From positions 186,001 to 250,000 of the forward strand of contig NZ_LAPV01000093.1 of assembly GCF_000971275.1 (NCBI RefSeq): 64,000 bases of DNA, read 5' to 3'. Each line of letters begins with the position of its first letter. Positions within the stretch are counted from its first letter, which is position 1. Source of the DNA: Devosia psychrophila. GTDB lineage: Bacteria > Pseudomonadota > Alphaproteobacteria > Rhizobiales > Devosiaceae. The notes beneath the pieces are model-generated. The model worked only from the letters and a program-made list of their open reading frames with translations, was not told the origin of the DNA and did no database searches. Below are positions 22,571 to 36,851 of the stretch, piece after piece. The position numbers were made by a program, and so were the translations under genes.

Positions 22571-23683
22571 ATGGACAAGCAACAGACCTGGCCGCAGGGC
22601 GTATTCCCGGCGCGGCTGATCGAGATGCTGCACAAGCAGGGCTCGATTCAAGCGAGCCGGCCGTTCGATGCCGACCAGGTGCAACCGGCCAGCCTCGACC
22701 TGCGATTGGGCGACGTGGCATTTCGGGTTCGCTCCAGCTTCCTGCCCGGCCCGAGCCATTCGGTGTCCGAGCGCATCGAAGCGTTGAAGCTGCACGAGAT
22801 TGACTTGAGCAACGGCGCCGTGCTGGAGCGCGGCTGCGTATACCTCGTGCCGCTGCAGGAAAGCCTCGACCTGCCCGACGCGGTCAGTGCTTCGGCCAAT
22901 CCCAAGAGTTCGACCGGGCGATTGGACGTTTTTACCCGCGTTATCGGTGATCGGGCGCGCGGCTTCGATCAGATGCCGTACGGCTACAAGGGTCCGCTTT
23001 ATCTCGAAGTCAGCCCCCGCACCTTCCCGATCCTCGTGCGCACCGGTTCGCGGCTCAGCCAGATGCGGTTCCGCTCCGGCGACAACCGGCTGACAGTTGC
23101 CGAGCATCAGGCGCTGCATGCAAGCGACACACTGGTGTTCAAGAACGACGTGCCGGTCGGCGAAGGCGTAGCGCTGTCGATCGACCTCAAAGGCCTTGGA
23201 CGCGACGGGTTGATCGGCTTTCGTTCGCGGCGCCATACGGCCGTGGTGGACGTGGACAAGAAGGCGACGCTCGACGTGCTCGACTTCTGGGACCCGCTGT
23301 TCAATCGCGGGCGTGAGGAGCTGATCCTCGATCCCGACGAATTTTATATTCTGGTCAGCGACGAGGCAGTGCATGTACCGCCTACACATGCAGCCGAAAT
23401 GGTGCCGTTCGATCCGCTGGTGGGCGAATTCCGCGTACATTATGCGGGCTTTTTCGATCCCGGCTTTGGCCACTCACCGGCTGGCGGCACGGGCAGCCGC
23501 GCCGTGCTCGAAGTACGCAGCCGCGAAGTGCCGTTCCTGCTCGGCCATGGCCAGACTATTGGCCGCCTGATCTATGAACGGCTCGCCGAAGCCCCGGACC
23601 GGCTGTATGGCTCGGCGCTCGGCTCGAACTATCAGGCGCAGACCCTGAAGCTGTCCAAGCACTTTAAGCCCTATACTGGCTAG
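22571..23683 (+). CDS. dcd: 2'-deoxycytidine 5'-triphosphate deaminase (long form)
   Basis: This deaminates dCTP to dUTP, feeding dTMP synthesis. At 370 residues it is twice the length of typical Dcd and belongs to the alphaproteobacterial long family, which carries two dUTPase-like halves in one chain. Visible motifs: VQPASLDLRLGD near the start, ASANPKSSTGRLDVFTR (the PKSSTGR signature) in the first half, and RSREVPFLLGHGQTIGRL in the second. The ATG at 22571 follows GGAA; an in-frame start 48 nt earlier lies in the divergent promoter region. The stop overlaps the end of the chemotaxis operon by four bases. Confidence 0.93.
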   Translation: MDKQQTWPQGVFPARLIEMLHKQGSIQASRPFDADQVQPASLDLRLGDVAFRVRSSFLPGPSHSVSERIEALKLHEIDLSNGAVLERGCVYLVPLQESLDLPDAVSASANPKSSTGRLDVFTRVIGDRARGFDQMPYGYKGPLYLEVSPRTFPILVRTGSRLSQMRFRSGDNRLTVAEHQALHASDTLVFKNDVPVGEGVALSIDLKGLGRDGLIGFRSRRHTAVVDVDKKATLDVLDFWDPLFNRGREELILDPDEFYILVSDEAVHVPPTHAAEMVPFDPLVGEFRVHYAGFFDPGFGHSPAGGTGSRAVLEVRSREVPFLLGHGQTIGRLIYERLAEAPDRLYGSALGSNYQAQTLKLSKHFKPYTG

Positions 23684-25413
23684 AAGAAGATATCGTCGGC
23701 CTCTTCAGTCGCTTCCGCGGCAATTGGAGCCGATAGATCGGCGCCGAAGATCTTCTCGTGGATGCGGCGCTCGGCGTCCATTGTATAGCGCTTGCGATGC
23801 GCGGCCAGCAGGTCCGCCACCTCGCCCGTCGGCTTGGCTGAGCTATGCTCGGGGCATTCGGCCGCCAGTTGCAGCTGCAGATCGCGCATGGTTTCGGCAA
23901 TGTCGGTGAGGCCGCCAAAGGTTTGAGCGGCTGCGCCCAACAGGTTGATGACGCTGGGGCCATCTCGGTTGAGCGTGCCAAGGGCCTCGGCAAGCGACTT
24001 GTCGACACGTTGCAGCAGGACCAACGAGGCGCTGGCTTCCTGTTCGAGCTGGCCGACCCGGCCGGCCGTGTCGCCATTGGCGGCCGCGCCGAAGGACTGG
24101 GCAAGACCGGCTGCCTTGTGCAGACCGGTCATGGCGGCCTCGGCGGCAGCGACGGTTTCGCCGGTCAATTCGCGGAGCTGGCGGGCGATGACGTTGAGGG
24201 CTGCGCCGCGCGGCCCGAGCTGGGCGCATTTGACGGCGGCGTTGAGGCTGACGAGGCGCATGTTGGCCTCGATTTCCTGCACCGCTTCGACGTGGCTGAG
24301 CAGCACGCCAACGGTACCGAGCACAGCAGTGGCGACGACTTCCAGCTTGCCGCGTTCAACTTCGCAGTCGCGCAGCACCAGGGCTGCGTGGCGAACGGCG
24401 TCGCTCAGCGTGGCCAGCGAGGAGGTCTTGGCATCGCCCTTGCCGTAGACGGCGCGGCTCTGGCTCATGATGGCGCTGGCGTCGGCAGCCAGATCGCGCA
24501 GGGCGTCACCTGCCTCGGCCACGTCACTCTCGAACGCGTCGGCTGCAGAGGATAGTTGCGCCACCTGGAGGCCACCCATGGCAGCGCGGGCCATGACGGC
24601 ATCGTCGGCGGTCATCAGCCTGGCTTCGATCTGGGCGCTCAGCGCTTCGATACCGCTCTCGACATGCTCGATGCGCTGGCGCGTCGCATCACCGACCTGC
24701 AAGGCCATGACGGCGCTGGCAATCCGCCCAAAAATTTGACGCGAAACGCGGCCGGTTTCGGCAGTGCTATCAACCGAGACGGCGCGCTGGCGGGCGAGAT
24801 CGGCCAAAGCCTCATCCATGCCCTTGGCCAGCTCGACGAGCGTATCGGCATGGGCATTTTCGAATTGACCGCGCTGGCGAGCCGCCTGGCCCACCTCGTC
24901 GGTCAAGCGACGATAGGCGGCGGTGAAAGCCTGGATAGTCGAGGTGGCGCTTTCGGACAGCTTGGCGATGTCGGTGGTGAAGACGTCGAAGTCTTCACCA
25001 TCACCGACGACGCTGGCCGCCACGACGCGGGCATTGATGGAGACGATGCCCATCATCTTGACGGTGCGGCGCAGCTCGGAAATCGGATGCGACGCAGCGG
25101 CGACGACCTCCACCAGGCGCCCTAGATCGGCCTGCTCGGTGGCAAACATTTCGGCAATGGTGCGGGCCTGCTCGCCGACATTGGCTAGGCGGCTGGAGGC
25201 TTCGAGGAGTTCAGGGCTCTGCAGTTCGGCAGGCAGGGCTTCGAAGACCTTGGTGACCTTGTTGAGCATGCCGGCGCCTTCGGACAGGCGCCCACCGACT
25301 GCAAGGAAGGTGGTCTCGATCTGCTCGCGCGGCTCGGCCAGCGCGACACCGAGGGCGCGAACGCTGGCCTCATTGCTATTGGCAGCGGGAAGGGAAACGG
25401 CGAGAGCGGTCAT
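23680..25413 (-). CDS. Soluble chemotaxis protein with two MCP-like hairpins
   Basis: A 577-residue all-helical cytoplasmic protein, the last gene of the chemotaxis operon, overlapping cheB by four bases. Two segments look like degenerate MCP signalling tips: residues 121-154 ([11 protein letters not shown] ... [14 protein letters not shown]) and 384-417 ([11 protein letters not shown] ... [13 protein letters not shown]), compared with the usual LLALNAAIEAAR ... GFAVVAxEVRKLA. Between them [14 protein letters not shown] (239-252) contains Asp242-x-Thr-x-Gln246, the spacing of the CheZ catalytic DxTxQ. The chain ends EEADDIFF, an acidic-aromatic tail like the CheY-binding tail of CheZ. There is no membrane segment, HAMP domain or methylation-site match. 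It could be a CheY phosphatase, a soluble receptor or a scaffold; the family is not recognised. Confidence 0.75.
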
Positions 25414-26540
25414 GAAGTTTGTCCCGTGCGAGGCGCGAGGCGTGCATATATTTCGATCTCGTGCGCTACCCGGTTGAGCGGCACGATCTTGACGGCGGCG
25501 CCGCGCTGAATGGCTTCCTTGGGCATGCCAAACACCACGCAGCTATCTTCGTCCTGTGCGATCGTGTGGCTGCCAGCCTGGCGCATTTCCAGCAGGCCAC
25601 GAGCCCCGTCGTCGCCCATGCCGGTCAGGATGATGCCCATGGCATTGCGTCCGGCAACCTGTGATGCCGAGCGAAACATCACGTCCACCGAGGGGCGATG
25701 CCGCGAGACGTGCGGGCCTTCGACGATATTGACGGTGTAGCGGCTGCCGGCGCGATGGATCACCATGTGCTGGTTGCCGGGGGCGATCAGCGCGAGGCCA
25801 GGCCGCAGCACGTCGCCGTCTTCGGCTTCCTTGACCTCGATGGCGCACAGCGTGTTGAGACGCCGGGCGAAGGCGTTGGTGAACTTTTCCGGCATGTGCT
25901 GCACGATGACGATGGCCGGGCTGTTGGCCGGCAGCTTTTCCAGCACGTCGCGTAAAGCTTCGGTGCCGCCGGTCGAGGCGCCGATGCAGATGATCCGATC
26001 TGTCTCGGGGAGCTTTGCCTTGACCGAGGCGGCGCGCGATTCCGAAAACGGCGGCAGGATCGCGTCAGCGGTGAGCTTGGCCTCGACATTCATCGGCGGC
26101 GGCGGCGCCTTCTTCACGCCGCGGAATTTTGCATGGGCCGCAGCCTTGGCGGCGTCGCAGATGCGCATGCGGGATTCTTGCAAAAACGCGGTGGTATCGA
26201 CGCGCGGCTTGGCCACCACATCGACAGCACCGGCTTCGAGCGCCTGCATCAGCGACTCCGAACCGGCTTCGGCAAGGCTTGAACAGATCACCACCGGAAT
26301 GGGCCGCTGGCTCATGATCTTGCGCAGGAAGGTCAGCCCGTCCATGCGTGGCATCTCGATGTCGAGAAACATCACGTCGGGCACTTCCTGGCGGATGCGC
26401 TCGACCGCGACATAGGGGTCGGCGGCTGTCGCCATGACTTCGAGATCGGGATCGCTGGCGATGATCTCGCTCAGCGTCATGCGGACGGAAGCGCTGTCAT
26501 CGACGATCAGGACGCGGATTTTGCGGCTGGTGCCTGGCAT
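25410..26540 (-). CDS. cheB: Chemotaxis protein-glutamate methylesterase CheB
   Basis: This removes methyl groups from receptor glutamates and deamidates glutamines during adaptation. The 376-residue protein has an N-terminal receiver (IVDDSASVR; phosphoacceptor Asp60 in [15 protein letters not shown]) and a C-terminal esterase domain with the catalytic triad regions [11 protein letters not shown] (Ser), [11 protein letters not shown] (His) and [12 protein letters not shown] (Asp). The linker is longer than usual (about 55 residues, with PPPP). It lies 10 nt after cheR and overlaps the next gene by four bases. Confidence 0.96.
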
Positions 26541-26550
26541 TGGAGAACTT

Positions 26551-27435
26551 TCAGGCCTTCTGGAATACGGCGGGCGCGACCTGACGCATGGTCACGGCAG
26601 TTCCGATCATGGACTCCGAATGCCCAAGAATAAGATAACCGCCGGGGCGCAAATGCTCGACTAGACGGAGGATGACCTTTTCCTGGTCGGCCTTGTCAAA
26701 ATAGATCAGCACATTGCGCAGGAAGATGACGTCGATATCCCTGTCGAAGGGATAGGTCTTGTCCATCAGGTTGAGCCGCGCAAAACGCACCAGGCGACGC
26801 AATTCGGGCACGATGCGCACTTCGGCACGCGCGCCGGGCTTCCGGGCGTGCATCAGGTAGCGTTGCGCCTTGGCTGGCGGTACGGGCGCCAACAACTCGG
26901 TGGCATAGACGGCGCGTTCGCCCTGCTCCAGCACCGTGGTGGAAATGTCGGTGCCAAGGATGGCGAAGCGGAAATCATTGCGCTGCGCCATCAGGTCGGC
27001 CAGCACCATAGCCAGCGTGAAAGCCTCGGCGCCGGTCGAGCTGGCCGCGCTCCAGATTTTGAGCATCGGCTGGCGCTCGCCGCGCCGCAGTGCGATCAGG
27101 TCGGGGACCAGCTTTTGTTCGAGCAGGTCGAAATGCTCGGGCTCGCGGAAGAAGTCAGTTTTGTTGGTGGTGACGGCGTTGATCAGATGAGGCCGCTCGG
27201 CGCGCAGGCCGTCGGTCTGGAACAGATAGGCGCTGTAAGCATCAAGACTGGGCAGGCCAAGCGCGCGGACACGCTTGCGCAGGCGACCTTCGATCATCAG
27301 GCGCTTGCCGGGGGGCAGCTTGATGCCGACCTCGTCGCCGATCAGGTCGGCAATGCGCTTGAAATCGCGTGCCGAAAGATGGTCGTCGTCGGCACTCTCG
27401 ATGCGGGCAACTGCAGAATTTGACATTGGGGGCAA
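26551..27435 (-). CDS. cheR: Chemotaxis protein methyltransferase CheR
   Basis: This transfers methyl groups from S-adenosylmethionine to receptor glutamates. The 294-residue protein has the N-terminal helical domain ([20 protein letters not shown]), the [14 protein letters not shown] motif, the SAM-binding [17 protein letters not shown] and [13 protein letters not shown], and [14 protein letters not shown] near the end. The start is either TTG at 27433-27435 with GGAGAG about 6 nt upstream, or ATG at 27424-27426, three codons later. It is followed by cheB. Confidence 0.96.
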
Positions 27436-27493: not shown

Positions 27494-27955
27494 TCAGGCA
27501 GCCTGGGTGATGGTCTCGACTTCGCCGAGCAAGCGCTCGAGATCGAGCACCGTCACGAAGCGGCCATTGCGACGGCCGAGGCCGGCAATGCAGTGGCCCG
27601 ACCAGGCACCACCGACCGCCGGGGGTGGATCGAGGTCGTCCTCGTCGAGAATGGTCACCTCGAATACCCGGTCGGCGCGCAGACCGAGCCGCAGGTCGCC
27701 ATTCTGGCCCGCAAGGGTCAAGACGATGATGCGGGTGTTCTCGTTGTCGGGTGCCGATGGCAGGCCGAGCGTCAGACGCAGATCGACCACCGGAATGCCC
27801 TGCCCGCGAACGTCGATCATGCCGAGCAGGGTGTCAGGCGCCTGGGGCAAACGGGCGATAGGCCGCATGTCCAGGATTTCCTGTACCTTTTCGACGGGCG
27901 CCGCGAACAGTTCATCGGCAACACCCAGGGTAACGTATTGGGCTCGTTCAGCCAT
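27494..27955 (-). CDS. cheW: Chemotaxis coupling protein CheW (second copy)
   Basis: CheW links receptors to CheA in the signalling array. This 153-residue copy has the double SH3-like fold pattern: YVTLGVADELFAAPVEKVQE, IDVRGQGIPVVDLR and LRLGLRADRVFEVTILDEDD. The ATG at 27953-27955 (MAERAQYV) has AAGGAG upstream; the frame continues further but into the end of the MCP gene. It lies between MCP genes and cheR and differs clearly from the other CheW at 32004-32504, so the two may couple different receptors. Confidence 0.93.
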   Translation of the reverse strand: MAERAQYVTLGVADELFAAPVEKVQEILDMRPIARLPQAPDTLLGMIDVRGQGIPVVDLRLTLGLPSAPDNENTRIIVLTLAGQNGDLRLGLRADRVFEVTILDEDDLDPPPAVGGAWSGHCIAGLGRRNGRFVTVLDLERLLGEVETITQAA

Positions 27956-27965
27956 GATCCGCTCC

Positions 27966-29810
27966 TTATGCCGCGCCGCGGCGGCTGAATTCGCCGTCGA
28001 GAGCGTCGGCTCCGTCATCGAGGTCGAGGTCGAAACCGCCGCCATTGGCGGAGCGGCCCACGTGTTTGGCTTCACTCATCTGGGGCGCGCCGGCCATGAT
28101 CGCATCACGTAGACCGGCACGGGCCGGCCGGGACTTGGCCTGAGCCTGCGCCACGACCTTAGGTTGCTGGCGGGCGTCGATGCGGAAGTAGCTGATGGCG
28201 GCCTGGAGCTGTTCGGCCTGGCCGGCCAACTCCTCTGACGTCGCCGACATCTGTTCGGCGGCCGAGGTATTCTGCTGGGTGACCTTGTCGAGCTGCTGGA
28301 TGGCGGTGTTGATCTGGGCTGCACCGGCATTCTGCTCGCGGCTGCCGGCGGAGATTTCTTCCACCAGTTCAGCAGTACGCTGGATGTCGGGGACCAACTT
28401 GCCGAGCATTTCGCCGGCGGACTGGGCAGCCTTGACCGTGGTGCCCGAGAGCGTCGAGATTTCGGCAGCGGCAGCCTGGCTGCGTTCGGCGAGCTTGCGC
28501 ACTTCGGATGCCACGACCGCAAAACCGCGGCCATGTTCGCCGGCACGAGCGGCTTCCACCGCGGCGTTGAGGGCGAGCAAGTCTGTCTGGCGGGCGATTT
28601 CCTGCACAACCATGATCTTTTCGGCGATGGTCTGCATGGCGGTCACAGCCTTGTTGACCGCTTCACCCGAGGCGATGGCGTCGGCTGCGGACTGACGGGC
28701 GATCTTTTCGGTCTGGCTGGCATTTTCAGCCGACTGCTTGATGGTCGAGGCCATTTCTTCCATCGAAGCCGAAGCCTCTTCGGTCGAGGAAGCCTGTTCG
28801 GTAGCGCCCTGGCTCAGCTGTTCGGCAGTTGCCGACATTTGCTGGCTGCCAGCAGCGACGTTGTTGGCGGCCTGCCGGGCATCACCAATGACTTCGCGTA
28901 GCTTATCGAGCATGCGGACTAAAGCCAGACCCAGCGTATCCTTGTCGGACAATGCGACAGCTTGCACTGTCAGGTCACCATTGGCGATCTGGTCGGCAAC
29001 ACCTGCGGTGGTGCGCAGGTTCTGGGTCATCATGTTGAGCGCGTCGACAAGCTCCTCCACCTCATCACGGGATGTTACAGTTGCGGTAGCCGAGACATCA
29101 CCAAGCGCCACAGCATTGGCCAGGCCGATGGCCGATGCCAGGTTTCGCTTGATAGTGTTGGTGACGAGCACAACGATACCGATCGCGACGAGGGTAACAA
29201 TCAGCGCGACGCCAAGGATCATCAAAGTGAGGAATTCGAACAGAGACTGGCCTTCGCTCCGCAGCGTTTCTGCCTGAACGAGCTGATACGACGAAAGTTC
29301 GTCAATCGTGGCATCGACGGGATCAGTGGCGCCGTAAAGCTGGGTTCCAACAAACTGCTGCAGGGCCGGCATGTTGCGGTTTTCAAGCAGTGTCGCCAAC
29401 TCGGCGATTTTGGGCATGGCACCGGCCAGTGCCGTCTTGACCTCGGCAACCAGCACCTGTTCGGCGTCCGTCATCTGCGTGCCGAGATAGGAGTTCCAAT
29501 TTTCATCGATGGCAGCCTGAGCGCCCTCGATACTATCGCTACCCTCCGACCAGGTCATCTGGCCGCCAGCTACCTTGCTTGCCGCACCGACAACGTCGGC
29601 AAAGAAGGCGTCCGACACGGTCTTCAACTGCTGGAGCGGCACAACGCGATCATCATAGATCGAGGCCATTTGGACGGCCATCTGACTCATGCCGAAATAT
29701 CCCATACCACCAACGGTAATGGCTATGGTCAACGCAGACGCCAGCTGAACCATCAGTACCTTGGCCGATATGCTGGAGAATTTTGAACGCCGGGAGGAAT
29801 GAACAGTCAT
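27966..29810 (-). CDS. Methyl-accepting chemotaxis protein (614 aa)
   Basis: A membrane receptor with an N-terminal membrane helix (about 17-39), a periplasmic helical-bundle sensor of about 155 residues, a second membrane helix (about 193-215), a HAMP domain (two HAMP-like segments around 215-325) and a cytoplasmic signalling domain with the hairpin tip [20 protein letters not shown] and [16 protein letters not shown]. It ends [10 protein letters not shown] without the NWETF tether pentapeptide. Over about 245 residues the signalling domain differs from the neighbouring MCP at only about five positions, whereas the sensor domains are unrelated. It lies 82 nt after that MCP and 10 nt before cheW. 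Confidence 0.95.
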
Positions 29811-29892: not shown

Positions 29893-32007
29893 TCAGGCAG
29901 CACTGCGCCGAGTAAAGTCGCCGTCGAGTTCGTCGTGACCGTCGTCCATGTCCAGATCGAAACCGCCGCCATTCGACTTGGCCGGCTTGCGGGTCGCGAC
30001 ATGGGGTGCGCTGGCCATAATGGCTTCACGAAGATCGCGGCTGGCTGGTGCCTTGCCCTTGGACTTTGCCTTGGCGGGAGCGGCAGCGGGAGCGGCAGAA
30101 GCCTGTTCGGCACGACCATCGATGCGGAAGTAGCTGATGGCGGCCTGGAGCTGTTCGGCCTGGCTGGCCAACTCCTCGGAGGTAGCCGACATTTCCTCGG
30201 CTGCCGAGGTATTCTGCTGGGTGACCTTGTCGAGCTGCTGGATCGCCGTGTTGATCTGGGCGGCACCGGCATTCTGCTCGCGGCTACCGGCGGAGATTTC
30301 TTCCACCAGTTCAGCCGTGCGCTGGATGTCAGGGACCAGCTTGGCCAGCATGTCGCCAGCAGATTGGGCAGCCTTGACCGTGGTGCCGGAGAGCGTCGAG
30401 ATTTCGGCGGCGGCAGCCTGGCTGCGTTCGGCGAGTTTTCGAACCTCAGAGGCGACAACCGCAAAGCCACGGCCATGTTCGCCGGCACGGGCGGCTTCCA
30501 CCGCGGCGTTAAGGGCGAGCAGATCGGTCTGGCGGGCGATTTCCTGCACGACCATGATCTTTTCGGCGATGGTCTGCATGGCCGTCACAGCCTTGTTGAC
30601 CGCTTCACCCGAGGCGATTGCGTCGGCTGCGGACTGACGGGCGATCTTTTCGGTCTGGCTGGCATTTTCAGCCGACTGCTTGATGGTCGAGGCCATTTCT
30701 TCCATCGAAGCCGAAGCCTCTTCGGTCGAGGAAGCCTGTTCGGTAGCGCCCTGGCTGAGCTGCTCGGCGGTTGCCGACATTTCCTGGCTACCGGCAGCAA
30801 CGTTACGGGTTGCGGTGGTGACTTCGCTCACCACTTCGCGCAGCTTGCGGGTCATGCCGTTGAGGGCGTCGATCAGGTCCTTGATTTCGTCATCACCCTT
30901 GACCGAAGCAGTGGCGCTGAGATTGCCGTCGGCAACTTCATTGGCCAGGCGAACGGCGCTGGTGAGAGCCTTGGAGATCGACATGACGATCCAGGTGGCG
31001 GCAACCAGAGCGATCAGCGCGGATGCGACCAGCAGAGCGATCAGCATTGTGCGGGTCGAATCGTAGAGTTGCTGAGACGTCGCGAGCGCATTCTGGACCA
31101 CAATGCTATTGCGCTCCACGATTGCATCCAGGAGCGTGTTGGCCTGGGCCCGCAGTGGGACGGCAGTATTGGTCAGGATGCTGTTAGCGTTGTACTGCGA
31201 GCGCTCGGAGGCAGCCGCATTGCCCTTGTTCATTGCGGCAAAGAGCGCGTCGACATCGGCGCGGAAATCGTTCGCCAACGCGGCTTCGGCGGGACCGACC
31301 TGGCGAACCAGGCGATCCACATTGGGCTGAATGCGTTGAAATGCGCCGTTGAAGTCGGCGAGCCACTGATCTTGCTTAGCTGGATTGTTGGAGGCAAGCA
31401 GCACATTGCGATGCTGACGAAATGCGTCGCTGGAATCCAAGAACAGGGAGCTTGCAGTTTCATAGGCCGGGAAGGCGGTTTGGTCGCCAGCATTAACGCG
31501 AGCGGCCAGTGCGGGCAGTAGCTTGCCCATCGTCTCTTCCACCGCAGTGATCGCCGCGCTACCTTCAGAGGTGGTTATAGCAAAGGCGGTGGTCTCGGTG
31601 TTCTTGATTGCCTCGGTCTGAGCTTGTTCCAACGCTGCCCAATAGGCGTCGATGGTCGTGATGAAGCCATTCATGTCGGTGACGTTGTCGGGATTGGTGA
31701 ACTTGAGCACCAGATCATGAGCGCTTGCGCTCAAATCGGTGTAGTTCTGCTGCATGGAGGCCTGTAGCTTCTCCATGGCCGGTACGTCCGTGCTCAGGAT
31801 CATCGCGCGGATGTCGCTGGCAATGGATGTCATCTTGAACTGGATCTGCTTCAGCCCCTGGGATCGTTGCACCGGACCATCAATCACGCTGCCCATGGAC
31901 GCGTTTATATTACCCAGGCCTTGGAGTGCCAGGAACATGCTGGCGCCCGATAGCGCGACCACGACGGTGAACACCGCCGCCAGTTTTGTCTTGATAGTCA
32001 GTCTCAT
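29893..32007 (-). CDS. Methyl-accepting chemotaxis protein (704 aa)
   Basis: A receptor with a membrane helix near residues 10-30, a long periplasmic helical sensor of about 270 residues (longer than a simple four-helix bundle), a second membrane helix ([20 protein letters not shown], about 317-336), one HAMP domain, and the same signalling domain as the 614-residue MCP. The tail, [15 protein letters not shown], resembles that of its neighbour. The start overlaps the stop of the upstream cheW by four bases. The long sensor suggests a double helical-bundle ligand domain, but the ligand cannot be predicted. Confidence 0.95.
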
Positions 32008-32504
32008 GACGCAGACCTCTCTTCTGATGCTGCCAGATGCGCGCTTCTGGCGCCCTGTGTTTCGAAAATTCGTCCCAGGTTGGGGATAATGATGAAGCCG
32101 CCATTGCGCTTGCCGATGCCCTTGATGAATTCGGGGCGCCAGCGCATGCCGACCTTTGGAGCGTCCTCGATGGAGGCCGCTTCGATGTCTGTGACGTCAT
32201 GCACTTTGTCGGCGAGAATGCCGGCAATGGTGGGCTCGCCGTCGATGTCGATTTCCATGACGACGATGCGGGTGTCCTGGTTCGGCTCGGGCCGATCCAT
32301 GCCGAACATGACGCGGAGATCGGCCAGGGGCACGACGCGGCCGCGCACATTGATCAGCCCAGCGACGAACTCGGGTGCATTGGGCACTTCGGTGATCGGC
32401 ACCAGGTCGAGTATTTCGCGGACGCTGCCGGCCTCGACGGCGAACAGTTCGTCCTGCAGCCTCAGTGTGAGCGCTTTCATCGGCGCCTTTGGTGCACTGC
32501 TCAT
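32004..32504 (-). CDS. cheW: Chemotaxis coupling protein CheW (first copy)
   Basis: A 166-residue Che[39 protein letters not shown] and [17 protein letters not shown] mark the SH3-like subdomains. The C-terminus carries an extra tail of about 20 residues. It overlaps cheA (four bases) and the 704-residue MCP gene (four bases), so it is translationally coupled to both. It is expected to join these receptors to CheA. Confidence 0.94.
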
Positions 32505-34540
32505 GCTGCTCTCCCCTGATCGACATAGGTCTGGCCGAAGGCCACGAGATGGGCGGTATCGAGGATCAGGGCCACCGTGCCATCACCGAGGATGGTGGCG
32601 CCCGAGAAGGACTTGATGCCCGAATGCAGCTTGCTCAACTGCTTGATGACGGTCTGGTTGTTGCCGATGATCTGATCGACCACGAGGCCGACGCGACCTT
32701 CGCCGGACGAGACGATGACCACCTTCTGGTGCGGCTCGATGGGAGCCTTGGTGCCAAACACCTCGCGCATCCGCAGGAAGGGGACGAGACTGCCGCGGAT
32801 ATCGAGGAAATTGCGCCCACGCGCATTGGCCTCGACCCCATCGGGCAGTTCGACGCATTCTTCCACGGCGGCCAGCGGAATGGTGTAGCGGCCGTTGCCG
32901 ACCCGCACGAGCATGCCATCGATGATGGCCAGCGTCAGCGGCAGGCGCAGGGTCATGGTCGAGCCCTGCCCGGCCTTGGTGGTCACATCGATTGAGCCGC
33001 GCAGGCCATCGATGGTCCGCTTGACCACGTCCATGCCGACGCCGCGCCCCGAAAGCGAGGTCACTTCCTTGGCAGTCGAGAAGCCGGGCGCGAAAATCAG
33101 GTGGTTGAGTTCCTGCTCGGTCAGCTTCTGCTCGGGGGTAATGATGCCGTTCTCTTCGGCCTTGGCGCGGATGCGCTCGGCATTGAGCCCGGCGCCGTCA
33201 TCGGTCACCGAAATCTTGACTTCGGCACCGGCATAGACCGCCGAGAGACGCACCGTGCCCTTGGCTTCCTTGCCCGCCGCGAGACGCTTGTCAGCACTTT
33301 CAAGCCCATGATCCACCGAGTTGCGGATCAAGTGGACCAGCGGATCGGCAAGGCGCTCGATCATGGTCTTGTCGAGCTCGGTATCTTCACCTGTGGTGAC
33401 GAACTCGATTTCCTTGCCCAGATCGCGCGACAGGTCGTGAATCAGGCGGCGGAAGCGGCCGAACAGCGTGCCGATCGGCACCATGCGGATGCCCATTGTG
33501 GTATCGCGCAGGCCCGAGCTCAGGCGTTCGAGCTCTTCGGCAATGGTCTTGAGATTGCCGTCCTGGCTCATATTGGCGATCTGGGTCAGGCGGGCCTGGG
33601 CAATCACCAGTTCGCCGACACGATCCATCAGTTCGTCGAGGCGTTCAGCATCGACACGCATGGAGGAGGAAGCCGCAGGCGCGGGCTCCTTGTCGGCAAC
33701 TTTGGCCACTTTGGCCCTTGGAGCCGGTTCCGCTGCAGCCTTGATCGCTACGGCAACGGGCAATTGCACCGCCGCGGCTCCTTCAGGCACGGGCTCGGAT
33801 GCGGGCGCGGCAGCCTCTTCCGCCAGCGGCTCGACCGACAGCTCCATGCCGTCCTTGAGGAACAGGAAGACGTCGTCGATAGCTTCACGCGGATCGTCGG
33901 CGACCATGTCGATCTGCCAGCCGATATAGGGGACTTCCGGGTCGATGACATCGAGCGACGGAATGGTGTCGGTCAGCGCCACAACGGTACAAGGACCCAG
34001 CGCGCGAATCTCGTCGAGCAGCAGCAGCGGATTGGTGCCATAAACCAGTGAATCACCCGGCAGGCGGAAGCGGATGCGCCAGCGCTGTTCGCCAGTAGCA
34101 ACCGGAGCTGCCTCGGCAATGGACGCGGCCGGTGCCGGAGCCTCGTCGAGGACGATGTCGGCACCCGTGCCGCCAGCGATGACGATGCGGAGCGCTTCGA
34201 GAATAGCCTGGCCGCCGGTTTGCGGCGCATCGGGCTCTTCGATCAGCTTATGAATATGGTCCTTGGCATCGAGCGCCACGCCGATCAGTGCGGGCGTCGC
34301 CGGGGACTGGCCCTTGCGCACCTGGTCGAAGGCGGTCTCGAATTCGTGCACGAAGGCGGCAACGGCGGTGAAGCCAAACATCGCGCCAGAACCCTTGATG
34401 GTGTGGAGGGCGCGGAAGGTGGAATTGATCAGGTCGTCGTTTGCGGGGTTCTGCTCCAGGTCGAGCAGGCCGAGTTCGAGCTGCTCCAGCAATTCCCGGG
34501 CTTCCTGACGGAATGTTTCGGTGGGATCAGGGAAGCTCAT
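32501..34540 (-). CDS. cheA: Chemotaxis histidine kinase CheA
   Basis: CheA autophosphorylates in response to receptors and passes phosphate to CheY and CheB. The 679-residue chain has P1 with His46 (FRALHTIKGSGAMFGF), a ferredoxin-like P2 (RWRIRFRLPGDSLVYG, about 170-260), a proline/alanine linker, P3 dimerisation (RLDELMDRVGELVIAQARLT), the P4 ATPase (LIRNSVDHGLE, DDGAGL, FSTAKEVTSLSGRGVGMDVV) and a CheW-like P5. The ATG at 34538-34540 (MSFPDP) overlaps the cheY stop by ATGA; an earlier in-frame start would lie inside cheY. Confidence 0.97.
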   Translation of the reverse strand: MSFPDPTETFRQEARELLEQLELGLLDLEQNPANDDLINSTFRALHTIKGSGAMFGFTAVAAFVHEFETAFDQVRKGQSPATPALIGVALDAKDHIHKLIEEPDAPQTGGQAILEALRIVIAGGTGADIVLDEAPAPAASIAEAAPVATGEQRWRIRFRLPGDSLVYGTNPLLLLDEIRALGPCTVVALTDTIPSLDVIDPEVPYIGWQIDMVADDPREAIDDVFLFLKDGMELSVEPLAEEAAAPASEPVPEGAAAVQLPVAVAIKAAAEPAPRAKVAKVADKEPAPAASSSMRVDAERLDELMDRVGELVIAQARLTQIANMSQDGNLKTIAEELERLSSGLRDTTMGIRMVPIGTLFGRFRRLIHDLSRDLGKEIEFVTTGEDTELDKTMIERLADPLVHLIRNSVDHGLESADKRLAAGKEAKGTVRLSAVYAGAEVKISVTDDGAGLNAERIRAKAEENGIITPEQKLTEQELNHLIFAPGFSTAKEVTSLSGRGVGMDVVKRTIDGLRGSIDVTTKAGQGSTMTLRLPLTLAIIDGMLVRVGNGRYTIPLAAVEECVELPDGVEANARGRNFLDIRGSLVPFLRMREVFGTKAPIEPHQKVVIVSSGEGRVGLVVDQIIGNNQTVIKQLSKLHSGIKSFSGATILGDGTVALILDTAHLVAFGQTYVDQGRAA

Positions 34541-34905
34541 GCGCCGGTGACCTTCTTGATCACCGACAGCAACTGGTCCTGCTTGAACGGCTTGACGATC
34601 CATCCGGTAGCACCGGCTTCCTTGGCCTGACGCTTGAGTTCGTCGTCGGACTCGGTGGTCAGAAGGATGATCGGAATGCCCTTGCTGGAGGGATGCTGGC
34701 GATATTTGCGGACGAACTCGATGCCGTTCATCACCGGCATGTTCAGATCGGTAATTACCGCATGAATGGTGTTGGAGATCGCCTTGTCATAGCCGTCAGA
34801 GCCGTTGATGGCCTCGATGACATCAAGCCCGGCGCTGGTCAACGTCATCGAAACCATCTGACGGATGGAGGCTGAATCATCGATGGTGAGGATGGTCTTG
34901 CTCAT
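34537..34905 (-). CDS. cheY: Chemotaxis response regulator CheY
   Basis: A single-domain receiver of 122 residues. The acidic pair lies in TIDDSASIR, the phosphoacceptor Asp53 in VITDLNMP, the conserved Thr in LTTES and the Lys in IVKPF. Phosphorylated by CheA, CheY would act on the flagellar motor or another output. It overlaps the STAS gene upstream and cheA downstream by four bases each, so the first four genes of this operon form one tightly coupled block. Confidence 0.95.
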   Translation of the reverse strand: MSKTILTIDDSASIRQMVSMTLTSAGLDVIEAINGSDGYDKAISNTIHAVITDLNMPVMNGIEFVRKYRQHPSSKGIPIILLTTESDDELKRQAKEAGATGWIVKPFKQDQLLSVIKKVTGA

Positions 34906-35243
34906 GCTGCCTTGCCCTTGGCTGGTGATGGGGTCCAGAAATCGCCGTCCGGCGTCAGTGCGCGGCCTTGGGCATCGAGAAACCCGGTGTGCGTCAGCAA
35001 GTCGCGCAGCACGCCCTTGGGCTTCGCGGTGAGGCGCAATGACTTGCCCGAGGCCTGCGCCAGTTTGCTGGCGGCCAGAAGAAGTTGAATTGTAGTGATA
35101 TCGGCGCTGGTGATCGCGTCTGTCGCGATGGCGATTTCATCTTGCGTGGAGATGGCATGGCGCAGTGTAACGGCGAGTTCCTGGGCCGCCTTCAAGCCGG
35201 CATCGCCGGTAATTTCGACAACATGGGCGCTATCTCTGGTCAT
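34902..35243 (-). CDS. STAS domain protein at head of chemotaxis operon
   Basis: A 113-residue single-domain protein with the STAS pattern of anti-sigma-factor antagonist-like proteins: a leading strand VEITGDAGLKAAQEL, a central strand-loop AITSADITTIQLLLAASKLA and the final helix GVLRDLLTHTGF. The Ser/Thr residues in the TSADITT loop lie where SpoIIAA-type proteins are phosphorylated. The ATG at 35241-35243 is preferred over a GTG 24 nt upstream. It is the first gene of the operon, overlapping cheY by four bases. Its role in chemotaxis is unclear; a switch protein interacting with a kinase or the array is one idea. Confidence 0.82.
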   Translation of the reverse strand: MTRDSAHVVEITGDAGLKAAQELAVTLRHAISTQDEIAIATDAITSADITTIQLLLAASKLAQASGKSLRLTAKPKGVLRDLLTHTGFLDAQGRALTPDGDFWTPSPAKGKAA

Positions 35244-35746
35244 GGCTATGACCGAGCCCAAAAGCACAATAGGCAGTACATAATGTTACGCTACCGATGG
35301 ATGGATTGGAACGGGGCCCGAAGACAGTCTGTTTCCAGACCGCAAAGGCTCGTTCAGACGCTGTTTACTACTTCGAATTCTCGCACCGTATTCCCATCCG
35401 ATGCATTACCATCCGTATCGAAAGTTGATTAAGGCCATCTTACTTCGCCTTATTTTCTCCATACATTTATATGCTTGAATTTCGCGCTAAATATTTCGGT
35501 CGTGATTCAGAGTCATTGCAACAAATCGTCGATTGTCTTGAATCTTGATTCACCCAAGCTGAGTCTTCGATTCAGGCGGCAGAGTCCCCCCGGAGTCTCT
35601 GCTCAAGTAATACTGAAAGTAATTCTCCGGCAAATATTTCGACCGGCCCATAAACTGGCTCAAAATATCCTTCGCGTGCCGAATGACGACACAAATTTTG
35701 CCGTCGCGGGAATGCGCATGGAACAAATGCAGCCCTGTGATCCAGC
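35244..35746. other. Gene-free AT-rich stretch upstream of chemotaxis operon
   Basis: About 500 nt between the STAS gene and the terminator of the HD-GYP gene. It is visibly richer in A/T than its surroundings, especially 35440-35560. It must hold the chemotaxis-operon promoter, but no convincing -35/-10 pair or conserved RNA was recognised. Small open frames here (for example 35475-35774 plus) have no credible protein features. Confidence 0.5.
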
Positions 35747-35804: not shown

Positions 35805-36851
35805 TTAGAAGCCGACGGCCTGGTTGACGTTGCCGCCCATGATGGCCTCGATCTCTGACCACTTGGTGCAAAATGAAGCAACACACGCCGGATCGAAGTG
35901 CGTGCCGCTACAGGCAAGGATCTCGGCATAGGCCTTGTCGATCGGCCAGGCCTTCTTGTAAGGCCGCTCGGAACAAAGCGCGTCGAACACGTCGGCAATG
36001 GCCACGACACGCGCCTCGATCGGAATATCAGTGCCGGACAGCTTGTCGGGATAGCCCGCCCCGTCCCAGCGCTCATGATGGCTCTGGGCAATCAGTTCGG
36101 CGATCTTGATTAGCTCAGAAGAGCCGTTCTCCAAAATCCGCGCGCCGATGGTTACATGCTCGCGCATGATACCGAATTCTTCCGGCGTCAGCTTGCCCGG
36201 CTTGCCCAGGATGGCATCGGCAATGCCGATCTTGCCAATATCGTGCAGCGGCGCCGCCAGGTAGATGGTGCGGCAACGCTGCGGGCTGAGCCCGATGCCG
36301 CGGGCAATGAGTTGGCTTATCTGGGCGACGCGCGAGACATGCCCGCCGGTATCGCCATCACGATACTCGATGGCGCGCGCCAGCCGCCAGATGATCTCTT
36401 CCTCGCGCTGCAGCAGATGGGCGGTGGCCTGCTCGACCTCGCGCGCCAGCCAGTTGGCACGATCGGCCAGTTCCACCTGTGCCGCGCGCAGGCTCAACAG
36501 GTTGGCGACGCGCGCCTGCAGTTCGGTTGGATCAAAAGGTTTGTTGACGAAATCGGTGGCCCCCGCACGGATAGCCTCGATGCGGGTGTTCCTGTCCATA
36601 TCGGAGGTGACCATGATGATGGGCACGAGCCGATAAGAATCGCGGGCCCGCAGCGCGCCGGTGAACTGCACGCCATCCATCTCAGGCATGATGTGATCTA
36701 CCAGCACCAGATCATATTGCGTTGCCAGGCTGCGTTCGAGAGCATCGAAGGGATGGGTGCAGCTATCGATATCCGCATTGGTCGCGGCCTTCACAATCGT
36801 TCCGATCATGGCAAGGCTCGAACGGCTGTCATCGACAATCAAAACACGCAT
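35805..36851 (-). CDS. RpfG-like response regulator with HD-GYP domain
   Basis: A 348-residue protein with an N-terminal receiver (LIVDDSRSSL; phosphoacceptor Asp52 in LVLVDHIMP; VNKPFD) and a C-terminal HD-GYP phosphodiesterase domain (APLHDIGKIGI, REHVTIGARIL, SHHERWDGAGYPDKLSGTDI, DVFDALCSERPY). HD-GYP proteins hydrolyse cyclic di-GMP, so phosphorylation probably tunes its level. It is a single-gene unit with its own terminator. Its position beside the chemotaxis operon suggests a role in motility-to-surface switching, which is inference. Confidence 0.95.
   Translation of the reverse strand: MRVLIVDDSRSSLAMIGTIVKAATNADIDSCTHPFDALERSLATQYDLVLVDHIMPEMDGVQFTGALRARDSYRLVPIIMVTSDMDRNTRIEAIRAGATDFVNKPFDPTELQARVANLLSLRAAQVELADRANWLAREVEQATAHLLQREEEIIWRLARAIEYRDGDTGGHVSRVAQISQLIARGIGLSPQRCRTIYLAAPLHDIGKIGIADAILGKPGKLTPEEFGIMREHVTIGARILENGSSELIKIAELIAQSHHERWDGAGYPDKLSGTDIPIEARVVAIADVFDALCSERPYKKAWPIDKAYAEILACSGTHFDPACVASFCTKWSEIEAIMGGNVNQAVGF

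Follow-up and report, generated by a model that had tools for sequence, protein, structure and literature searches.

A candidate CheZ-type receiver phosphatase on a chemoreceptor-like hairpin in a che operon of Devosia psychrophila

The window analysed here is a 64,000-nucleotide stretch of the Devosia psychrophila genome (contig NZ_LAPV01000093.1, positions 186,001 to 250,000), and our subject is the last gene of a che operon within it, whose product we call protein X. The operon runs in the order receiver-HD-GYP response regulator, STAS-domain protein, CheY, CheA, CheW, two methyl-accepting chemotaxis proteins (MCPs), a second CheW, CheR, CheB and X (Table 1). Pfam confirmed the CheA, CheB, CheR, two CheW and CheY listed in a previous reading of this DNA by a model, hereafter the original prediction, which had singled out X as an unrecognised protein with two MCP-like tips and a CheZ-like motif, and had offered two explanations, namely, a CheY phosphatase or a soluble receptor. 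X is indeed left unplaced by Pfam and NCBIfam, since no curated family passes in either and the single NCBIfam match is a chance one to GroES (E-value, E, of 0.088); Pfam gives no CheC or CheX match on X either. In the source genome, which has a flagellin frame and two CheA genes, no CheZ, CheC or CheX was found by Pfam (CheZ at E 0.001), their absence having originally been claimed for the operon; cheD, also claimed to be missing from the operon, was not seen in the scan of the operon proteins, and one does occur in the second che cluster of the genome (L118). Judging from sequence comparison, we propose, with a probability of roughly 0.65, that X is a CheZ-type receiver phosphatase, most likely for the CheY of its operon, built on a chemoreceptor signalling hairpin.

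CheZ dephosphorylates CheY by means of an Asp and a Gln on a helix. X reads VGDATRQR at the corresponding motif, which lies between the two tips and is accompanied by the EEADDIFF end, both of them present in the 577-residue open reading frame (ORF) as originally described. When proteins were searched without use of the motif, 13 of 199 genomes of the order proved to have X, and D242 and Q246 are kept in 13/13 of these motif-blind members, so that the conservation check proposed with the original prediction came out in its favour; R245, R247, E249 and H250 are likewise invariant, and T244 is kept in 12. In the alignment of these 13 rows, the 12-mer at residues 239-250 has the lowest mean entropy in the protein (0.40 bits), followed by residues 542-553 (1.0 bits) and the two tips (1.16 and 1.20 bits). 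This ranking bears on the second of the offered explanations, in which X would be a soluble chemoreceptor or array component with two tips binding CheA and CheW, and the motif would be incidental: it is the motif, and not the tips, that is best conserved.

A collection scan with the pattern DxTRQR[IL]EH provided 80 loci, kept among at least 497 confirmed, in which conservation of the motif is selected by the pattern, only the 13 proteins above being motif-blind. An alignment of 42 X proteins (A2) and most of the 91 X rows used below stem from these loci; the set is without a broken gene (L081) and one with a frame change (L105), and three of its rows are the same gene reached twice. The loci belong mostly to Devosia and Bradyrhizobium, and also to Azospirillum, Rhodobacter, Sphingomonas, Jiella and Litchfieldella, and among them the closest named relative of X, 96% identical, comes from a Devosia metagenome-assembled genome. 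In 72 of the 80 loci X and CheB are same-strand neighbours, in three they are divergent, and in the remaining five, four of them at a contig edge, CheB was not seen. Homologues with a listed gene are named 'hypothetical protein', 'chemotaxis protein' or 'type VII secretion target'; the last label, which two of the seven homologues from Shinella bear (H5 and H8, both on plasmids), is probably a coiled-coil misannotation.

Table 1. Genes of the che operon in the window and features of protein X. Residue numbers refer to X.
Feature	Position	Strand	Comment
X gene	23680..25413	-	577 aa, ATG start; last gene of the che operon
X residues 29-40	25294..25329	-	E33, F36, G40 invariant in the 13-row alignment, >=90% in the 42-row alignment
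X residues 110-164, first (degenerate) MCP tip	24922..25086	-	predicted turn 136-140
X residues 239-250, CheZ-like motif	24664..24699	-	D242 codon 24688-24690, Q246 codon 24676-24678
X residues 368-428, second MCP tip	24130..24312	-	second copy; without D...Q at the equivalent +115/+119
X residues 542-553, second most conserved stretch	23755..23790	-	entropy, 13-row alignment
X residues 569-577, acidic-aromatic C-terminal tail (...EEADDIFF)	23683..23709	-	putative receiver-binding peptide
CheB	25410..26540	-	Pfam; 4-base overlap with the start of X
CheR	26551..27435	-	Pfam
Second CheW	27494..28075	-	Pfam; real start probably downstream of 28075, because the ORF runs into the MCP gene
MCP	27966..29810	-	Pfam: 4HB, HAMP, MCPsignal
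MCP	29893..32007	-	Pfam: 4HB, HAMP, MCPsignal
CheW	32004..32504	-	Pfam
CheA	32501..34603	-	Pfam: Hpt, dimerisation, HATPase and CheW domains; the Pfam scan showed no receiver domain; start probably slightly downstream of 34603
CheY	34537..34905	-	Pfam; putative likeliest substrate of X
STAS-domain protein	34902..35267	-	Pfam
Receiver-HD-GYP response regulator	35805..36851	-	upstream of the che genes, heads the operon; putative alternative substrate

Both tips were detected when the X family was compared with the MCP profile using hhalign, the second clearly (P 2.3e-8, probability 95) and the first more weakly (P 8e-4, probability 24). Pfam MCPsignal matches X at residues 375-425, but below threshold (E 0.014; 15.7 bits, where 34.6 are required), and thus the comparison with MCP and CheZ families that had been proposed as a check returned the tips by profile, but neither a passing MCPsignal match nor a Pfam CheZ match. 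Detection of the tips speaks for a soluble chemoreceptor, as does the occurrence of canonical tips with MCPsignal in 23 of the 23 one-tip relatives described below. MCP tip residues contact CheA and CheW, however, and the canonical contact tip (EAARAGEAGxGF type, a consensus from the one-tip relatives) is absent at either tip of X, and no sensor domain was found in X by the Pfam scan. In the AlphaFold model of X (pLDDT, the predicted local distance difference test, 85.9; pTM, the predicted template modelling score, 0.61) the first tip has a turn at 136-140, a long helix (141-263) holds D242 and Q246, and a continuous helix (332-446) runs across the second tip.

The position of the motif relative to the tip is nearly fixed. 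Counted from the tip Asn column, which is occupied by Ser in 7 of 42 X proteins, the Asp follows after 115 residues in 37 of the 42 and after 114-116 in the remaining ones; in the one-tip proteins the same distance is 115 in 19/23 and 110-116 in the others. Ordinary MCPs from the same loci, 124 of them once 4 of 128 MCP ORFs with no readable tip or too short were excluded, have Ser and Gln at +115 and +119 in 99 cases, a stretch that is part of the methylation helix. A DxxxQ starting +100 to +126 from the tip occurs in 5 of the 124, which again argues against an incidental motif on a soluble receptor. Taken together, we regard this explanation as distinctly unlikely. The same register places the N-terminal arm of the hairpin: Glu33 lies exactly 94 residues before N127 in 42/42 X proteins, and if the turn comes 10-11 residues past the Asn, as suggested by the break that the model shows at 136-140, residue 33 or 34 would face D242; we infer that residues 29-40 lie opposite D242 and Q246.

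To place X among its relatives, the 42-protein profile was searched in 385 alphaproteobacterial genomes, giving a match at E 0.001 in 191. Below the full-length proteins, the matches listed fall mostly on positions 280-525, around the second tip, which is what ordinary MCPs should give. The N-terminal half is hit instead by two of the matches listed, namely, L133 (398 residues; 9-260, E 2.3e-22) and L147 (416 residues, directly after CheB; 73-262, E 3.5e-16). These two have a canonical MCP tip (Pfam MCPsignal), QFQDRTKQRLEHV or QFQDRAQQQLESV, a YT(M/L) stretch and IELF as their last residues. Built from their motif-to-tail regions only, a new profile (A3) matched in 53 of the same 385 genomes at E 0.01, and retrieved further MCP-like proteins, X, and proteins of about 200-260 residues. 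Its match to X (E 5.7e-6) is not independent, because the X profile had led to the two proteins in it; its matches to CheZ are independent.

The resulting one-tip set has 23 aligned proteins, namely, 21 from the A3 search plus L133 and L147, while L181 is a 705-residue tandem. MCPsignal is present in all 23; Q318, Q320, D321 and Q325 are invariant, giving a QFQDxxxQ motif, in which FQ before the Asp is replaced by VQ in 2/23; and 22 of the 23 end in (I/V)(E/D)(L/M)F, L160 having DDDILFF followed by extra residues. A phylum-level search with A3 matched 16 of 398 genomes at E 1e-4, including eight that lie outside the class. Outside the class, L191, L192, L193, L195 and L197 show canonical tips, QFQDR(V/T)SQ and (D/E)ITFF ends, and the closest named relative of L192, 52% identical, is a 'methyl-accepting chemotaxis protein' on a Pseudomonas plasmid. 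Two short frames, L190:1501-1989 (-) and L196:981-1760 (-), read MQFQDxTRQQLEHV and GYVMESERxRHD and have a DLF tail; Pfam found in them neither an MCP match nor any credible match, and they may represent this protein in a minimal form. Stretches like residues 542-553 of X (YTM..ER or YVM..ER) recur in some one-tip proteins and in these two. Against the Protein Data Bank (PDB), A3 returned nothing credible.

X shares with the one-tip proteins the tip-to-Asp spacing, the D...Q pair, the acidic tail and profile similarity, in a family whose discovery started from X. By these sequence features, X is a member of a broader family with one-tip, tandem and MCP-less forms, and not the isolated oddity that it had seemed. 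This also recasts the caution in the original prediction that DxTxQ occurs in MCP-like proteins: such proteins exist, but those read resemble X in their tail and seem to belong to its family.

The tandem form can be followed within X. Residues 74-264 align with one-tip residues 153-343 (P 1.1e-13), residues 283-552 with one-tip residues 89-378 (P 4.5e-14), and the two halves align mutually (P 3.8e-6). After the second tip, none of the 42 rows of A2 has D at +115 with Q at +119, and 7/42 have some DxxxQ within +110 to +124. Because both halves align with the one-tip family, X looks like a fused pair of one-tip units, of which the first copy kept D...Q and the second lost it; hence the two tips stand as predicted, but look like a tandem duplication with a site in the first copy only.

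The loss of the second site is also relevant to a further alternative, namely, that X binds phosphorylated CheY without hydrolysing it, docking or buffering it at the array, with D...Q as a structural or binding motif. Since the second copy is without D...Q, the scaffold alone does not require it, and the invariance of Asp and Gln together with the flanking Arg, Glu and His exceeds what docking would need. In favour of docking, no other part of X resembles known receiver-binding peptides as much as the tail does, most members have both tail and motif, and the change from FQ to VG next to the Asp could mean that catalysis was lost. We consider docking without hydrolysis unlikely.

The tail itself was examined across the family. 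Most X proteins have an acidic stretch and then hydrophobic or aromatic last residues, with DLDALFF and DDIDAFLF among the tails of relatives. Of the 91 X rows, 71 obey a strict rule for such an end (68 of 88 when each gene is counted once), and so do 19 of the 23 one-tip proteins; among the controls, none of the 128 MCP ORFs and none of the 2659 other ORFs does, these controls being stop-to-stop frames of at least 200 residues from the 80 loci, many of which are not genes. The 20 X rows that fail have mostly FML ends or fewer acids. An earlier rule, which failed on the tail of the window's own X, was satisfied by 77/91 X rows, 20/23 one-tip proteins, 18/24 CheZ, 0/128 MCP ORFs and 0/2659 other ORFs; both rules were framed after inspecting tails. 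One Devosia member (L004) has a longer tail with several DDIFF-like repeats, as if extra docking sites had been added. The Pfam-assigned CheD of the second che cluster (L118:11567-12241, +) ends in PIDDIELF, the tail of the one-tip family, which suggests the tail as a shared docking peptide. Presumably, the tail of X also resembles the N-terminus of FliM.

CheZ itself was represented by 19 alphaproteobacterial loci, which remain of 20 after removal of L025, in which no motif was found. These have an FQDxTGQR motif and, in 15/19, tails such as QDDIDALF. First, A3 retrieves CheZ from whole genomes (E 4.8e-7, 2.2e-5, 6.2e-5, 8.1e-5 and 2.8e-4): six of the retrieved proteins of about 200-260 residues are among the loci from this search, and the five scanned all exceed the Pfam CheZ cut-off, the sixth (L186), whose frame is cut by a contig edge and which lay outside the Pfam scan, reading FQDLTGQRI. 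A3 thus reaches both X and CheZ though built without CheZ. Second, when segments of X, one-tip proteins and CheZ were cut on the motif itself, the one-tip family matched CheZ with P 7.6e-6 and probability 84. Third, the best window of X in a CheZ-motif position matrix lies on D242, about 9.5 bits above the next, though as an absolute score it is not rare, and the best window is on the motif in 72/91 rows of the X family. Pfam CheZ gave a sub-threshold match on L193, a one-tip protein from outside the class (E 0.0017), and none on the other five MCP relatives scanned. Of the two explanations originally offered, the CheY phosphatase gains most, as a sequence-based hypothesis, from the invariance of D242 and Q246, the recurring tail and the retrieval of CheZ with A3, a profile of intermediate MCP-signal proteins.

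Several observations weigh against a CheZ-type phosphatase. Pfam CheZ does not match X at E 0.1; at full length, X matches the CheZ profile with P 0.025, worse than a coiled-coil match (0.006), and its motif segments with P 0.002 and probability 14. Uncut, the one-tip family matches CheZ with P 0.0013 and probability 18, motifs in register, where the control comparison of MCP with CheZ gives P 0.011. In the matrix, 8/2659 other ORFs and 14/128 MCPs equal or exceed X. With Foldseek, no PDB structure matched X at E 0.001, and the best 50 of 574 rows do not include CheZ; the top rows are long-helix proteins and some MCP models, with the MCP crystal structure 2ch7 at E 0.05. CheZ has AXXFQ directly before its catalytic Asp according to the available part of PMC7750401, where X has A-L-Q-V-G: A is kept in 10/13 and FQ in 0/13 of the motif-blind members, Val/Ile/Ala-Gly preceding the Asp in the X family. 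Two relatives of X, L064 and L087, end without a tail. Altogether, we read the relation of X and its one-tip relatives to CheZ as a strong hint and not as settled homology.

A last point of this kind comes from co-occurrence. Genomes with one-tip relatives have a CheZ match in 17 of 19 cases, against 130/366 of the others, and in 19/23 once four weaker ones are included, these being genome-level counts and not matches verified as separate genes. The candidate rule that the one-tip relatives generally replace CheZ was rejected on the 17/19 coexistence, which indicates a separate role there, for instance array-bound dephosphorylation. X shows the opposite trend, with CheZ in 4/13 X genomes against 122/186 (Fisher p 0.017, uncorrected for phylogeny), and AxxFQDxTxQ was found in none of the ORFs of the 80 X loci.

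If X is a receiver phosphatase, its parts may act as follows. The tail ending in DDIFF, of low confidence and probably disordered, would dock on the receiver, as judged from CheZ-like tails. Asp242 and Gln246, which the model places on its long helix with a spacing of one helical turn, would enter the receiver active site, where, by the known mechanism of CheZ, Gln246 would position the water for its attack on the aspartyl phosphate. From its register, the N-terminal arm of this hairpin (Glu33, Phe36 and Gly40) would pack across from the motif and shape the site, and the second copy may complete a four-helix bundle by providing half of it, as the partner subunit does in dimers of CheZ or of MCPs.

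The receiver to be acted upon might also be another one, since the HD-GYP receiver and CheB are putative alternative substrates, in which case the system would steer cyclic di-GMP or adaptation and not the motor. The receiver-HD-GYP gene before the operon favours this possibility, as does an HD phosphohydrolase gene at the equivalent position in Agrobacterium leguminum (L125), the two hinting at a cyclic di-GMP output; so does the second che cluster of the genome, with its two CheY-like genes (L118). However, a CheY is encoded within the operon, and CheY is the target of CheZ enzymes whose tails are of this type, as stated in the available part of PMC7750401, so that we find HD-GYP or CheB as the principal substrate quite improbable. 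In Agrobacterium leguminum, a ParA-family gene (L125:13749-14450) lies between X and a divergent che operon, which brings to mind PpfA, the ParA-like protein by which Rhodobacter sphaeroides positions a cluster of chemoreceptors (PMC6829392, in part).

Compared with known systems, X shares with CheZ (PF04344) a D-x-x-x-Q-R on a helix, an acidic tail with a hydrophobic or aromatic end and the chemotaxis setting, and the two are connected through intermediate proteins, whereas X is more than twice as long as those of the alphaproteobacterial CheZ above that have no long extensions, has two MCP tips, carries YTMxxERxxH ahead of its tail and no FQ before the Asp, and is unmatched by Pfam CheZ. With the MCP signalling domain (PF00015) it shares the hairpin tips and a Gln at +119, common in ordinary MCPs, but differs in its degenerate tips, in its CheZ-like tail, in that no sensor domain was found, and in having D where 99/124 ordinary MCPs have S. 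Two further systems can be likened to X by description only. First, CheT of Sinorhizobium meliloti is, like X, an alphaproteobacterial che-operon protein with DXXXQ, and enhances dephosphorylation of one of two CheYs; the available part of that report (PMC12654446) mentions no MCP homology for CheT. Second, CheA3 of Rhodobacter sphaeroides has a 794-residue linker with a CheY6 phosphatase domain, in an organism whose che genes include no CheZ homologue, following the accessible portions of PMC2829493 and PMC6829392; it is likewise tied to a CheY phosphatase in a CheZ-less alphaproteobacterium, but there the phosphatase is part of a CheA. No MCP-shaped CheY phosphatase was found in the titles and first lines of abstracts of the open-access literature, a source outside which most subscription papers lie.

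It is tempting to speculate further that receiver phosphatases derived from the chemoreceptor hairpin form a large family of one-tip, tandem and MCP-less proteins, in which the catalytic Asp replaced the methylation-helix Ser while the Gln pre-existed, and that CheZ is a member or descendant of it, receptor and phosphatase sharing an origin; we put this forward as a tentative and rather doubtful idea. According to the part of PMC10782961 available, CheZ or CheC/CheX serves as the phosphatase in most chemosensory systems, and neither is present in 811 of 871 genomes whose only CheA carries a receiver domain. An MCP-shaped phosphatase, if true, would fill part of such a phosphatase gap, and the wider family may explain signal termination in some CheZ-less systems. 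The phosphatase reading predicts the outcome of a test of two residues, D242 and Q246, in proteins amenable to cloning and assay. Were it true, some annotated chemoreceptors would not be receptors, and the origin of CheZ would become a testable question.

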